Below are positions 480-51,703 of a stretch of 51,703 nt of DNA, piece after piece (position 1 is the first letter of the stretch; each line of letters opens with the position of its first letter). The stretch spans positions 1 to 51,703 of the forward strand of contig JAFWKY010000008.1 in assembly GCA_017514105.1 (NCBI GenBank), read 5' to 3'. Under the pieces are notes generated by a model. That model was given only the letters and a program-made list of their open reading frames with translations. It did not search any database and was not told the origin of the DNA. This DNA is from Candidatus Saccharimonadota bacterium. GTDB taxonomy: Bacteria > Patescibacteriota > Saccharimonadia > Saccharimonadales > Saccharimonadaceae. The translations under genes and the position numbers were made by a program.

Positions 480-1145
480 TTATAGGCGTCCGCGTATACT
501 AGCAGCCACGCAGCGGAGGGACCACCCGTAGTAGCGGACGTTGCGGCGCGCCGGGTATACAGCACCGGAACGGAAGTCCAGGTAGTAAGCCTGCGAAGCC
601 GAAACAGCAGTACTAGACCAGTAGAGGGCGTACCCAGTAAAGGTGTAAAGCGTGGAGCCGTCCACGTAGCCGGAACGGACAAAGTAGTAAGGGTTAGTAT
701 TAATGAGTGTATAGCCATTAGGGGTGTAGGTAGTATTAGTAGAGCCACTAAGGTCTGTGCCGATGGTAAGGACGAAGTAATTACCTACCAACTCTGAATT
801 CCGTAAATGGCATACCAGCATCTGACTTGTCACGCACCGGACGCTAAAGCCGCTCGCGCGATTGTACCTTTCCGCCGGATACAATGCACCGGAGTACGCG
901 AACAGGTTGTAAGCGTTCGAGCCACTATACGACGTAGTGGACCAGTAGTACAGGTCGGTAGTAGTGTACCTGTACTCATCTGACCACAGGCGGCCCGCGC
1001 GAGTAAAGTAGAGTGGATGAGTACTAAGTTTATCCCAACCATTAGTTTGATAACCAACATTAGTTATGTCACCAGAGCCAGAGTCTGTGCCGTTGGCGAC
1101 GCCGGCGTACTTTTTATTTATCATTAATGCTATAAACACTAACAA
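480..1145 (-). pseudogene. Two fused orphan FISUMP variable-domain cassettes (copies D and A)
   Basis: One 221-codon open frame, beginning at best with TTG, holds two FISUMP C-terminal modules in tandem. The first (copy D, about 1110-805) runs from KKYAGVANGTDSGSG to GFSVRCV. The second (copy A, about 790-480) runs from TIGTDLSGSTNTTYTPNGY through YYFVRSGY and YWSSTAVSASQAYY to WSLRCVA. There is no signal peptide, Shine-Dalgarno or promoter-like box at the start, so translation is doubtful. Copy D is the inverted partner of the + strand cassette at 128-469. Copy A is the direct-repeat partner of 1149-1452. FISUMP domains are generally found on secreted surface proteins. This looks like a store or graveyard of variable 3' gene ends. 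Confidence 0.65.
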
Positions 1146-1148
1146 CTA

Positions 1149-1452
1149 CTACCGCACCACGCAGCGGAGGGACCTTCCGTAGTTGCGGTCGTAGCGGTGC
1201 GCCGGCCATACACCACCGGAATCGAAGTACAGGTAGCAAGCCTGCGAAGCCGAAACAGCAGTACTAGACCAGTAGAGGGCGTTCCCAGTAAAGTAGTAAA
1301 GCCTAAAGCCATTCACGTAGCCGGAACGGACAAAGTAGTACGGATTAGTATTAATGAGCGTATAGCCATTAGGAGTGTAGAGAGTATCGGTAGAGCCACT
1401 AAGGTCTGTGCCGGTGGTGAGGATGGAGAACCTTACTGGCGTTTTATTCTCT
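1149..1452 (-). pseudogene. Orphan FISUMP variable-domain cassette (copy B)
   Basis: A reading frame that follows the stop codon of the MmcQ/YjbR-like gene in the same frame and ends at TAG 1149-1151. It encodes TGTDLSGSTDTLYTPNGY, YYFVRSGYVNGF, YWSSTAVSASQACY and RSLRCVV, so it is the same module as copy A. Thirteen consecutive framework codons (the stretch LYWSSTAVSASQA) are identical to copy A even at silent positions. About fifteen nearby codons differ, almost all with an amino-acid change. It has no start of its own; it may be an inserted 3' fragment or be reached only by readthrough. Confidence 0.65.
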
Positions 1453-1454
1453 AT

Positions 1455-1757
1455 TTACGATAAATTGTAACTGAGACGAACGAGATCATAAAGTTCGTCG
1501 TCGCTCAGTTGATTACCAGCGAGGACGATTTCAATGCCACCGCGACCAAAGTAGCGAGATTCCATAACTGATTCGTATTTTTCGGTGAGTAATTTCCTTA
1601 ATTCTGAATCCGTACGAATCTCAATAGTGTTTTTGTTAATAACCAAAAATGCCTTGTCGTCTTTGCGATAAATAACTCGTGATTGGTCGTTTTTGTCTTT
1701 TCCCTGTTCTGTGATGTAACCACCGATGCCGGTTACTTTAGAAATGTCAAATACCAT
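1455..1757 (-). CDS. MmcQ/YjbR-like small protein
   Basis: A 100-residue protein resembling the MmcQ/YjbR (DUF419) family, a CyaY-like alpha/beta fold of uncertain function, often annotated as DNA-binding. The match rests on the C-terminal pattern: IYRKDDKAFLVIN, then an EIRTDSELRKLLTEKY helix, ESRYFGRGGIEI and a closing DELYDLVRLSYNL helix. It is slightly shorter than typical members. The ATG at 1757 is preceded by AGGAG at good spacing and lies inside the 3' end of orn (25-bp overlap), so it is translated from the argS-orn mRNA. FISUMP fragments start right after its stop codon. Confidence 0.65.
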   Translation of the reverse strand: MVFDISKVTGIGGYITEQGKDKNDQSRVIYRKDDKAFLVINKNTIEIRTDSELRKLLTEKYESVMESRYFGRGGIEIVLAGNQLSDDELYDLVRLSYNLS

Positions 1758-2257
1758 TTGAGTTCTCCTATTGAGCCTTCAATATCGTCAAGCGCGCGAT
1801 GATTTTCTGGCTTGGTAAATTTTTTGTTCAAAGCGTGTTCAAAATAAATCTTCCAAGCGGAAACGTCCAGCATGCGGTAATGGAGCCGCTTGTTTAACTC
1901 TGGCATTTCGCGTTCAATAAACTTGCGATCTTGGTGAATGGAGTTGCCGGCAAGGTAGACTTCTCTGCCGAAATGTTCATCAAGGAATTTTAATAATTCC
2001 TCTTCAACTTTGGCGACTGGCTGGCCGTTTTCGTTTTGGGCGATTAGAGCATCGCGAGACTCCGCGTTCTTTTCCCAAAAATCACCGACCATGCGTTCTT
2101 TCATTAGTTTTTCTGGGACTTTGATGACGGCTTCGTACCGTGCGATTTCATTTAGTTGCATATCAGTGGCGATAGCAGCAACTTCAAGGATACTATCCTT
2201 CTCCGGTTCTAGGCCGGTCATTTCTAAATCTACCCATAGTAGTTTTGCACGTTTCAT
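1733..2257 (-). CDS. orn: Oligoribonuclease (DEDDh 3'-5' exoribonuclease)
   Basis: A 174-residue protein of normal length for Orn, which degrades 2-5 nt RNA (and pGpG) to mononucleotides in the cytoplasm. The DEDDh exonuclease signature is complete: D10 and E12 in WVDLEMTG, D110 in AGNSIHQD, and H153 with D158 in HRALDDIEGS. Its ATG shares one base with the argS stop (TAATG), so translation is coupled. The following mmcQ-like gene overlaps its 3' end. The three genes form one unit read from the argS promoter. Confidence 0.95.
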   Translation of the reverse strand: MKRAKLLWVDLEMTGLEPEKDSILEVAAIATDMQLNEIARYEAVIKVPEKLMKERMVGDFWEKNAESRDALIAQNENGQPVAKVEEELLKFLDEHFGREVYLAGNSIHQDRKFIEREMPELNKRLHYRMLDVSAWKIYFEHALNKKFTKPENHRALDDIEGSIGELKWYLTFLK

Positions 2258-4068
2258 TACATTTCCTCCGGAATTTCAATACCTAAGATGTTTAGTCCGT
2301 GCGTCATAGTCGCGAGAAAAACCCGAACGAGCCTGACACGCTGTGCCTCTCGGTCGCTGCCAGCAACTGGACAGTTTTCGTAAAAACGTGAGAAATCTTG
2401 GGCGAGTTCATAGAGGTAGTTTGCGACTTTGTGCGGAGCCATTTCGGCGACAGCGTCGCGTAGAATGTCCTTGTATTCTAGAAGTCTCTTGGCTAAAACA
2501 CGTTCAGTCGAATCGCAAGCCGTTACACCGGGGTCGCGTCGCTCACTCCCGTCGCCACGGGGTTCGCGCGCTATCTCTCGCGCTGCCGCGCTCCGAAATA
2601 CCCCTTGTGCAACGCTTTGCGATTCTGCAGATATTTTATCTAGGATTTTCTTGGCGCGAACGGCTGAGTACAGTAAGTATGGGCCGGAATTACCGGTCAT
2701 TTTGACGGATTCGTGTGGGTCAAAGACAATATTGCCGCCCATTTTGTATTTGAGGAAAGCGTATTTGGTGGCGGCGAGAGAGACTTTGGTGTCGTGAGGG
2801 TTATATTCTTCGGCAAGAGCGTCACTAACCATGTCCAAAACGTCAACAGCCTTGAGAAAGTTGCCTTTGCGGGAAGACATTTTTACATTGCCAGGTAATT
2901 TGACAAGGCCATGTGTTAGATGGCTAGTCTTCGCAACTAAGTCTGGAGCGAATTGTTCAACAGATTTCAGAACGACCTTCATATAATCGTGCTGTTCGGA
3001 GCCGGTGATAACGACAGATTTGTCAAAATGATAATCATTGTTCTTTGTGAGAATGAGGCCAACGTCTTTGGCTTCGTAAGTTGGGACACCTTCTTTGTTA
3101 ATAAAGACGCGGGTGTGGAGACCGTATTTTTCTCCATTAAAGATGACAGCACCGTCAGACATTTCGTAGACGCCGTTTTTTAATTGTTCTTTGACGGTTT
3201 TTAAGCCCAAAGCAGCGACGGTAGATTCTGGATAGAATTTGTCAAAATGAACACCGATTTTGGTGTAGAAATCTTTGAAATAATCGTATGACAGTTCCCT
3301 GCCTTGCCAGTACAAGTCCGCAAGTGGAGCGCCATGAATATCTTCGGAGTTGATTTCATAAATCTCTTTGTTTAACTCGGTAATTTTCTGTTTGGCCTCT
3401 TCGTCGTCTTCGTAGGCGGCGGTACCTTCTACGTAGCATTTGGCAATATCTTCAATTTTGAGTTCGGCGGGATTCTTCTGCATGAGGATATACATGGTCT
3501 TTGCTACGTGGAGTCCGACGTCGCCGCCGAAGTTCGCACGGACAACATTTGCACCGGCATATTCAAAGAGTCTAGAAATTGAGTCGCCGACGATACTGGT
3601 ATATAGGTGACCGACATGGAGGACTTTGAAAGGGTTTGGGTCGCTGAATTCGCAAATCACGGTCTTGCCGGTAAATGCGTCGCTCTTGATGGACGCTTCG
3701 TAATCCGCGCTGATTAACTCTATGCGATTTTCGTAATAGTCGTCTGGCAGAGTGAAGTTAAGGAAACCTGGAGCAGAAACGCTGATTTCTGATACGGGGC
3801 CGCGTCCGTCCGGCCCATCGCCATGGGCGGACGGCGCTATCTCTCGCGCTGCCGCGCTCCGAAATACCCCTTTATCAGAAATTAGCGTTTCCCTCAATTC
3901 TTCGCTAATTTCCATAGGCGACTTATGTAATACTTTGGCGAGTTTCAAGGGTGCGTTAGTGGAATAGTCGGCGTTGATGTTGGCTGGAGATGGGGAGAGT
4001 TCGGGATCAAAATCTAGACCGTAGAGGTCCTGAATAACTTTTTTAAGTTGAGCGGATATTTCTTGCAT
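2257..4068 (-). CDS. argS: Arginyl-tRNA synthetase carrying two in-frame palindromic inserts
   Basis: A 603-residue class I aminoacyl-tRNA synthetase that charges tRNA-Arg. Visible parts: the N-terminal additional domain, the HIGH-type motif in FKVLHVGHLYTS, the KMSKS-type motif in VKMSSRKGNF, and a C-terminal anticodon-binding helical domain (HKVANYLYELAQDFSRFYE). Two stretches have no family counterpart: GVFRSAAAREIAPSAHGDG near residue 67 and GVFRSAAAREIAREPRGDG near residue 490. Both are in-frame copies of one GC-rich palindromic element (see the repeats at 2510-2625 and 3777-3890), placed in probable surface loops between conserved blocks. The promoter -10 box TATAAT (4080-4075) ends 6 nt before the ATG, so the mRNA is probably leaderless. 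Confidence 0.95.
   Translation of the reverse strand: MQEISAQLKKVIQDLYGLDFDPELSPSPANINADYSTNAPLKLAKVLHKSPMEISEELRETLISDKGVFRSAAAREIAPSAHGDGPDGRGPVSEISVSAPGFLNFTLPDDYYENRIELISADYEASIKSDAFTGKTVICEFSDPNPFKVLHVGHLYTSIVGDSISRLFEYAGANVVRANFGGDVGLHVAKTMYILMQKNPAELKIEDIAKCYVEGTAAYEDDEEAKQKITELNKEIYEINSEDIHGAPLADLYWQGRELSYDYFKDFYTKIGVHFDKFYPESTVAALGLKTVKEQLKNGVYEMSDGAVIFNGEKYGLHTRVFINKEGVPTYEAKDVGLILTKNNDYHFDKSVVITGSEQHDYMKVVLKSVEQFAPDLVAKTSHLTHGLVKLPGNVKMSSRKGNFLKAVDVLDMVSDALAEEYNPHDTKVSLAATKYAFLKYKMGGNIVFDPHESVKMTGNSGPYLLYSAVRAKKILDKISAESQSVAQGVFRSAAAREIAREPRGDGSERRDPGVTACDSTERVLAKRLLEYKDILRDAVAEMAPHKVANYLYELAQDFSRFYENCPVAGSDREAQRVRLVRVFLATMTHGLNILGIEIPEEM
2510..2625. repeat. Palindromic element inside argS, copy 2 (core family I)
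   Basis: Outer arms GAATCGCAA (2510-2518) and TTGCGATTC (2617-2625) are inverted repeats. The complementarity continues inward (CGTT/AACG, CAC/GTG) to a core of about 77 bp at 2529-2605. The core is shared with the element at 3777-3890, including an almost identical block of about 39 bp (CGCTATCTCTCGCGCTGCCG and onward to TACCCCTT). It is in frame with argS and encodes the GVFRSAAAREIAREPRGDG insert. Confidence 0.75.
3777..3890. repeat. Palindromic element inside argS, copy 1 (core family I)
   Basis: Arms of about 18 bp (3777-3794 and 3873-3890; AAACGCT...TTTCTGATA against TATCAGAAA...AGCGTTT) flank a core with its own strong hairpin (CCGTCCG...CGGACGG). The arms differ completely from those of copy 2 while the cores match, so the mobile part is probably the core, or arms and core evolved separately. 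It is in frame with argS, with no stop codon in the argS frame. Confidence 0.75.
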
Positions 4069-49627: not shown

Positions 49628-51703
49628 CTACTGGAGCAAACAACGTACTGGAAAACCGTAGTCGCGGTCACCGCTGTACCCGTACTGGGGATTCACGTAG
49701 GACGAACTGACGTAGAGGTAGTACATATAGCTGCCATCGTGCCTCGTAGAGGACCAGAAGCGGCCGTACAAGTCCTGAAGGTAGGCCGAGCCATAGTAGA
49801 AGTGGCCAGAGAGGGGAGTAGAAAGGTTATATTGCAAACTACCAGTGTCTGTTGCTGTCTCATTGTTGTTGTATGCGGTTAATAATGCTGCGTATTCTCC
49901 ACTGTTACCACTAGTAGGCATTCGCCAGCCAGCAGGGCAGATATCTTGTGAGGCGCTTGTGTCGTCCTCCGGAGCAGCATTCTTGCTATAACAGTATGAA
50001 CCCGCAGATGCGGCACAGTAGTTATAATAGACACCTATTTTACCAGAACCGTTACCATAGGAAGTAGCAGTGGTATTTGAATCCCATTCATTATCATCCT
50101 CGTTTTTACCCTGTATGGCGATTTGCGGTGCTGAGTAACTATTTGTTCCCCAGTAACTTACGCCAGCGGTGGCGTAATTATTGCCTGCACTTCTGTTACC
50201 ACTTTTTAGGCTAGTAAGCGTTGCTGAATTTGTTATATTGGTGTTGGAAGATGAGATATCATCTTTATGGGCTACAATATCAAAACGAAGGTTGTCTAGC
50301 ATCCAACATTTATTGTCTGCTAGTTTGCCAACGAGATAGACTTCATTATCACGAGTATCGTAGATATATTTTGTATTGCCCACATTGGCTATATTAGAAC
50401 AACTATAATTTTGCATCGGTGTGTCTACGTACTGACTAGTCACATTTATAGTAGCAGTACCGGCTCCAACCGTAAACGTTCCAATGTATCCAGTCTGCTT
50501 AGTGAATGTACCTACGCCTGAAGTTTTTTCAAATACATTAGGCGCATAGCGGGTTGCATAAGTTGGTTTAATAGTATAGGTGTCTCCCTTATAAAGTGTT
50601 AAACTTTGTTCACTACTTGTGATAGTGCCTACTATATTACCATCAGAATCTAATACCTCTATGCTAGATACATTAGAATCTTTATTAAATGTGATACTAT
50701 AGACTTGTCGCCAGACGGCGTAAACATTTAATGTGTCTGTATAAGAGACAATAGTAGATCCTGCATAAAATTTAGGATTAGTATCACTACTATCATTACT
50801 CCATCCCAAAAACGCATAGTTAGGGCGAGTAAAAGAATTGCTACTTAGTGTAATTGAACCAGTATTAGTGGTTTGACTACTCATTGTCCCTGTACCTCCG
50901 TTAGCATTATATATGACAGTAAACGAAGTTTTATCTCCGCCAAGACGACAGCGAACTGGCATACCATAGTATTTATTCATGCCATCAGTAGCAGTAGCTT
51001 TGCCGATTCTCAAAAACATATCGTCACCACTACTAGCAGATTTAGCAGTTCTCTCCCAAGCGTAAGTATGTGTTGTGCTCTGATTATGCAATGTATCTTT
51101 ATAATACCCAGTAATTACATAGTTGGGCAAGGCAGGTGACCAAAGTTTGTTTTCATCGTTACCGTATTGACCTAAAAGCATTGCATATTCCGCCCTATTT
51201 GGTAATACCCAACCTTTTGGACAAATAGAGCTATGAGCTTCAATATCTGCTGCAGTAGAAGAATTGCCAGTACTAGCCGTAGCGGTATACCAGTTATAAT
51301 AGGAACCAAGACTAGTGTCGCCAGAATAGTACGCTTGCGCAGTGTCCACGTTTGCACTCGTAAAAACCCCACTCCAAGCAGGAGCCGAAGTAAAAGAAAA
51401 GCTACTTGTCACATCAGAATCAGAATTTGTAAGTGTTATCATTTCACCATTGCTTCCGAGTCTTAAATTCTGCGTCATCCAACAAGCTCCATCCCCCAAC
51501 GTTGAGATAGTATAATCATTCTGATCACGCGAATCAATAGCAACCTTATCGTCACCCAAACACTCAGTATAGTTTAAACCTTGCAAATGAATTATATCTT
51601 CTTCCCACATAGCATATAATGTACCTACGTTTATGGTAGTTTGATCTATTCCATATGTGAGGTCAGTGCCTGCGCCATCTGGGTTGTAGGTAGTACCAGA
51701 ACA
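49628..51703 (-). CDS. Large surface protein with InlB repeats and a variable FISUMP C-terminus (5' part outside window)
   Basis: The frame is open through the right edge, so the N-terminus is missing; 691 residues are visible. In order: the end of an InlB-type repeat (GTLYAMWEE), FISUMP domain 1 (NDYTISTLGDGACWMTQNLR to YYGMPVRCRLGG), another InlB repeat (YAFLGWSNDSS to NVYAVW), and a beta-rich spacer (YSITFNKDSNVSSIEVLDSD). FISUMP domain 2 follows (TRDNEVYLVGKLADNKCWML to FPVRCLLQ). The last 55 codons of domain 2 are packed with TAC, GAC, CGC, CAC and AGC codons, as in DGR variable regions, while domain 1 is not. Likely a secreted adhesin or ligand-binding protein. Confidence 0.85.
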   Translation of the reverse strand, partial: CSGTTYNPDGAGTDLTYGIDQTTINVGTLYAMWEEDIIHLQGLNYTECLGDDKVAIDSRDQNDYTISTLGDGACWMTQNLRLGSNGEMITLTNSDSDVTSSFSFTSAPAWSGVFTSANVDTAQAYYSGDTSLGSYYNWYTATASTGNSSTAADIEAHSSICPKGWVLPNRAEYAMLLGQYGNDENKLWSPALPNYVITGYYKDTLHNQSTTHTYAWERTAKSASSGDDMFLRIGKATATDGMNKYYGMPVRCRLGGDKTSFTVIYNANGGTGTMSSQTTNTGSITLSSNSFTRPNYAFLGWSNDSSDTNPKFYAGSTIVSYTDTLNVYAVWRQVYSITFNKDSNVSSIEVLDSDGNIVGTITSSEQSLTLYKGDTYTIKPTYATRYAPNVFEKTSGVGTFTKQTGYIGTFTVGAGTATINVTSQYVDTPMQNYSCSNIANVGNTKYIYDTRDNEVYLVGKLADNKCWMLDNLRFDIVAHKDDISSSNTNITNSATLTSLKSGNRSAGNNYATAGVSYWGTNSYSAPQIAIQGKNEDDNEWDSNTTATSYGNGSGKIGVYYNYCAASAGSYCYSKNAAPEDDTSASQDICPAGWRMPTSGNSGEYAALLTAYNNNETATDTGSLQYNLSTPLSGHFYYGSAYLQDLYGRFWSSTRHDGSYMYYLYVSSSYVNPQYGYSGDRDYGFPVRCLLQ

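Follow-up and report, generated by a model that had tools for sequence, protein, structure and literature searches.

What has produced the repeated protein fragments at the start of this contig, and why do they lie there without the front part of a gene? The sequence-only reading had noticed two neighbouring copies that differ almost only at NNC-type codons, and had attributed this pattern to a diversity-generating retroelement (DGR). The stretch of DNA that we analysed (the window, 51,703 nucleotides) is contig C2 of a Saccharibacteria assembly, which comprises 498 kb in 17 contigs (labelled here C1 to C17) and is about 76% complete (75.55%). Genomes of the same genus are denoted by G numbers. 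The assembly has its nearest named relative in Candidatus Saccharibacteria RGIG4349 (roe deer jejunum; acetate kinase identity 99%), and the other near matches of the acetate kinase come mostly from ruminant gut. Cultivated Saccharibacteria are episymbionts that live on other bacteria. Our answer, to which we assign a probability of roughly 0.7, is that the variable repeats (VRs) were made by a DGR and form a silent library that is re-used by gene conversion.

The cassettes in the window belong to two types, X and Y, the latter being a second FISUMP type. Up to the yjbR-like gene that flanks the array (1455–1757, minus strand; PF04237, 26.2 bits, below the cut-off), their order is Y+, X−, Y−, X−. 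The X-type cassettes A (501–790, minus strand; translation TGTDLSGSTNTTYTPNGYTL...SLRCVA) and B (1147–1445, minus strand) are repeats of each other and correspond to the C-terminal part of FISUMP; both are headless, and B starts about 10–25 bp past the yjbR stop. The Y-type cassettes are headless as well. One lies near the contig end (116–415, plus strand; limits by blastn) with in-frame stops just upstream, and the other at 829–1120 (minus strand; by blastn), with a Pfam Fib_succ_major score of 28.3 bits, below the cut-off of 33.9. Together, they form an inverted repeat of 88% identity (116–415 versus 831–1114). As had been proposed, A and B are direct repeats (506–777 and 1157–1428, 272 nt, 88% identity, spacing 651), and they agree at every base of a framework run of 13 codons (LYWSSTAVSASQA). 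In the 184-nt variable part they differ at 21 bases, 17 of them at codon positions 1 or 2. Comparison to the template places the VR at 506–689 in A and at 1157–1340 in B (both minus strand). The two Y cassettes and about 30 further cassettes elsewhere in the genome go beyond what had been noticed from the window.

To check the DGR attribution, a search for a reverse transcriptase (RT), an Avd gene and a template repeat (TR) had been suggested. An RT and a TR are indeed found, on contig C16. The RT (C16:28983–30218, plus strand, locus L036) carries the motifs IGNLTSQL and YVDD and matches the DGR RT of PDB entry 8ub7 (E = 2.4e-26), phrog_1423 (E = 1.3e-76) and an RT of PADLOC. It was recognised by reading the open reading frames (ORFs) that adjoin the template; it has no match to Pfam RVT_1, and a PF00078 search of the genome returned no RT. 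Thus, a search with Pfam only would have led us to reject the DGR reading wrongly. The TR (C16:30280–30474) lies about 60 bases past the RT stop on the opposite strand and is thus convergent with the RT; it reads NVNGSTLYNFTGNANYWSSTAVSASQAYNLNFNSGGVWPANRNNRNNGRSLRC, with asparagine at the variable codons. For Avd, the search yielded a conserved accessory ORF upstream of the RT that has no match in profile searches of PDB and Pfam. This ORF encodes 291 aa, and homologues, some of them weak, occupy the same position in 12 of 13 RT loci of relatives, and 11 of the 13 have an N-rich frame on the opposite strand directly past the RT. Just upstream of the DGR operon lies a gene of the HepT-like ribonuclease family (C16:27633–27968, L036:1634–1969, plus strand; PF01934, E = 2.1e-20). 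Among 60 genomes of the genus, 39 contain a DGR-type RT. In RGIG3299 (G206), a target gene and a TR are present, with no RT beside the TR; in this tandem (contig C8 of G206, L256:6640–7603), a housekeeping gene takes the expected RT position, and the locus is possibly an RT-less DGR remnant.

If the RT has written the cassettes, their mismatches should fall on the adenines of the template. We compared 39 adenines to 145 other bases of the TR and observed this concentration throughout (Fisher p between 1e-13 and 2e-6). Cassette A differs from the TR at 18 of 39 adenines and 3 of 145 other bases (p = 1.5e-11), and cassette B at 12 of 39 and 4 of 145 (p = 1.7e-6). The target gene on C15 has changes at 14 of 39 adenines and at none of 142 other bases, and a VR beside the TR (C16:31043) at 16 of 26 adenines and none of 98 other bases. 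Such changes turn AAC and AAT codons into NNC and NNT. Between A and B themselves, 14 of the 21 differences are at template adenines (Fisher p = 1.7e-6) and 7 are not, so that the exceptions that had been noticed are real. Since VRs that match the TR are spread over many contigs of the bin, the RT and the cassettes belong together. For the Y cassettes, no template is found in the assembly; they have 12 hypervariable codons with C as third base in 144 of 156 cells. With RT and TR present and mismatches at the TR adenines, the VRs of A and B are almost certainly of DGR origin, as judged from the comparison to the template.

One target gene of the expressed type also ends in a VR. This gene, a frame of 542 aa (C15:2–1627, minus strand), has a signal-peptide-like N-terminus and a FISUMP match (TIGR02145, 38.2 bits, below the cut-off). 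Its last 60 codons are the VR, which is cut by the contig end; it is plausible that a single gene, split within its VR, has its ends on C15 and C16. That FISUMP serves as a DGR target had been offered as an inference, and it now stands on firmer ground, as Fib_succ_major and DUF1566 are both reported VR domains of DGR targets and DUF1566 has been tied to TvpA/Mtd, which bears on a putative C-type-lectin-like fold of the target domain (PMC4159848). Judging from what other DGRs target, the expressed protein probably acts at the surface of the episymbiont, as an adhesin or receptor. Choline-binding autolysin repeats were considered as relatives of the cassette profile and dropped; the matches were local, low-scoring and aromatic-rich. 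Towards the opposite end of the window, a 691-aa frame (49637–51487, minus strand) contains two matches to Fib_succ_major.

Among the close copies of X and Y, the N-terminal domain is present in C15 only. A DNA search of the genome gave 31 matches to the array and, counted by type, 18 X and 15 Y places (TR excluded). The genome thus holds at least 33 VR cassettes, in which the two types alternate. Nearly all are headless and located in intergenic arrays; the headless fragments include those of the window and at least 20 others. The array cassettes share their start within the domain (near TTGTDLSG or GVANGTDSG), run to the C-terminus and are flanked on both sides by spacer or unrelated sequence, the spacers having been read by eye. 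In G206, mscL and yjbR are 7 bp apart with no cassettes between them, whereas here each of the two genes lies near a contig end behind cassettes, mscL on C3 and yjbR on C2. The array therefore appears to occupy the mscL–yjbR junction. Further into the window, the argS ORF (2257–4068, minus strand) contains a 34-nt element, GGGGTATTTCGGAGCGCGGCAGCGCGAGAGATAG, twice in frame (2571–2604 and 3837–3870). The element recurs on C10 near 23261, and the alignment to argS of G206 has gaps at both sites; the two copies thus resemble a dispersed repeat that has inserted in frame.

Could every cassette be a live VR of an ordinary DGR target that only looks headless due to a broken assembly, unrecognised starts or read-through from upstream? 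Many cassettes do lie at contig ends: C3, C5 (both ends), C8, C9, C10, C11, C14, C15 and C16 end in or within a few bases of one. As contigs break at cassettes, their true number is probably higher, and some headless copies may be assembly artefacts or gene ends. In addition, all complete cassettes of this genome are open frames with no internal stop. Some Y cassettes contain an ATG in frame (MINKKYAGVANG) and may be translated, and yjbR precedes cassette B on the same strand. In the relative G201, most VRs are inside full-length genes. Against this, interior cassettes are directly preceded by other cassettes or by unrelated genes, and stops lie just before the domain. Furthermore, the array cassettes have 3–17 non-adenine mismatches to the TR, compared to none in the target gene. 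For most of them besides A and B the range is 6–17, often with mismatches common to several cassettes (GCTGTATACCCG, GTTGACTCA), suggesting that these cassettes are older or derive from a second template. Taken together with the relative G178 (described below), this makes the explanation by live VRs unlikely. As they have no start codon, no N-terminal domain and 3–4 non-adenine mismatches to the TR, A and B look more like stored VR copies, or copies of another TR, than like ordinary targets.

Across the genus, the number of matches to the cassette profile ranges from 0 to more than 100 per genome; in RGIG4349 (G205), a DNA search found no X or Y cassettes. In G178, G163 and G187 the copies are nearly all short frames. 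Of these, G178 is 97% complete at 0.7 Mb with 114 profile matches, and no RT was detected in it in the survey of the 60 genus genomes. It contains about 110 headless cassettes, most of them far from contig ends, and two long frames only (C3:14093, 786 aa, and one on C27, 627 aa), which speaks against live VRs in a broken assembly. In 80 extracted cassettes, the hypervariable columns are free at codon positions 1 and 2 and mostly C or T at position 3. This codon pattern is, on sequence grounds, a DGR signature. Many cassettes form tail-to-tail pairs with short gaps in the array flanks (L095–L104, L143–L162), and near-palindromes, TTAGCATGCTAA being one, occur in some of the gaps. Another family of cassettes is arranged head-to-head with type c1.

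The same genome allowed us to ask if the copies exchange sequence. Among its cassette pairs, 3148 of 3160 share at most three consecutive hypervariable codons, and four pairs share 10–14. Three of the shared pairs touch contig ends and were given little weight. In the contig-internal pairs C26:11730/C8:11267 and C10:4337/C23:302, a 3′ block is common to both cassettes while the 5′ part and the 3′ flank differ. A full-length gene of G178, taken as the expressed one, also matches the array cassette C12:34914 at 169 of 171 nt, the cassette being cut by the contig end. Long shared blocks that include hypervariable codons in unlinked cassettes point to segmental gene conversion. In the source genome there is one shared block only (C8:24703/C9:7987); it covers 17 variable columns in 100 nt, has different flanks and lies beside a rearranged junction. 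At this junction (C9:7954–8084, L035), an X fragment in inverted orientation runs into the middle of a Y cassette, and the two meet at 11 nt that they share, GTAGTAGTTCC; the join is either a recombination junction or a chimeric read.

Two other explanations have to be weighed against these observations. The first is gene conversion alone, similar to pilS or vls and with no retroelement, where selection on amino acids gives the NNC pattern. It could draw on the shared blocks, which indicate recombination, and on a library in G178 where no RT was detected. The source genome contradicts it with an RT, a TR and mismatches at template adenines, and the NNC/NNT codons of G178 with free positions 1 and 2 are not what amino-acid selection alone would produce; we thus regard it as hardly credible. 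The second is that duplication or stray cDNA insertion left broken VR copies that are harmless and have no role. This is consistent with the absence of start signals, the duplicated Y–X units and spacers in the arrays, the rearranged X/Y junction on C9 and the stop codons in several copies of G187 and G163. Yet the complete cassettes of the source genome have no internal stop and those of G178 very few, and the high copy number is retained in genomes below 1 Mb. The framework of the G178 cassettes has a pN/pS of 0.16–0.32, compared to 0.84 at the variable codons, although the low framework value may partly come from selection before the copies became silent; for the source genome, pN/pS was too imprecise to be informative. 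The shared blocks moreover show that the copies still exchange sequence. Dead remnants are therefore an improbable account of the arrays.

We infer that a silent library read out by recombination explains the arrays best. DGR retrohoming would write adenine-targeted variants, already diversified copies would pile up as silent cassettes in intergenic arrays and serve as a reserve, and homologous recombination (segmental gene conversion) would reshuffle the cassettes and move some of them into an expressed gene. That the arrays function as a silent library seems to us evenly balanced. The full two-stage scheme, in which the retroelement writes, the headless arrays archive and gene conversion reads into a few surface-protein genes, is tentative and somewhat easier to doubt than to accept. 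If it holds, the library can keep working after loss of the retroelement, as in G178 with its 0.7-Mb genome and more than 100 cassettes. A lineage could then preserve and recombine variants of the binding domain that would be overwritten if it had a DGR only. This bears on how Saccharibacteria with reduced genomes might track changing hosts. Contig breaks inside cassettes would also explain fragmented assemblies, and such libraries are probably undercounted. DGRs and antigenic variation from silent cassettes are treated as separate routes to diversity, and a literature search, incomplete in its coverage, found no paper that joins a DGR with a library of headless cassettes. The DGR itself is of a known kind; the new part is its combination with the headless library.

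Neisseria pilE/pilS and Borrelia vlsE/vls have promoterless partial copies, blocks common to dispersed copies and few full-length genes. The system described here resembles them in its many partial copies with no start or N-terminal domain, in the segments copied between dispersed copies and in the few full-length genes. It differs in that the cassettes carry the codon signature of a DGR, the copies are dispersed over the genome and the transfer into an expressed gene is a proposed step. A paper on Patescibacterium raises pilE-like variation merely as a possibility (PMC11809585).

When comparing our system to known DGRs, we find the RT, the TR and the adenine-targeted C-terminal VRs of the BPP-1 type and of CPR clade 2 (Roux et al. 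2021, PMC8144416). Compared to the BPP-1 type, the TR is antiparallel to the RT, Avd is unconfirmed and dozens of headless VR copies lie outside target genes. The DUF1566 and Fib_succ_major targets (PMC4159848) are similar in domain families and in the C-terminal VR; those targets are complete genes, whereas most copies here have no N-terminal part. Large VR numbers are also reached in DGRs with highly repetitive VRs (PMC6642488), and inverted RT orientation is recorded among them, but most of them keep their VRs within target ORFs; their example with 91 pairs is atypical, with few adenine changes. As RT, TR and adenine bias are all present and transfer into an expression site is a proposed step, we class the system with the DGRs and not with pilS/vls.
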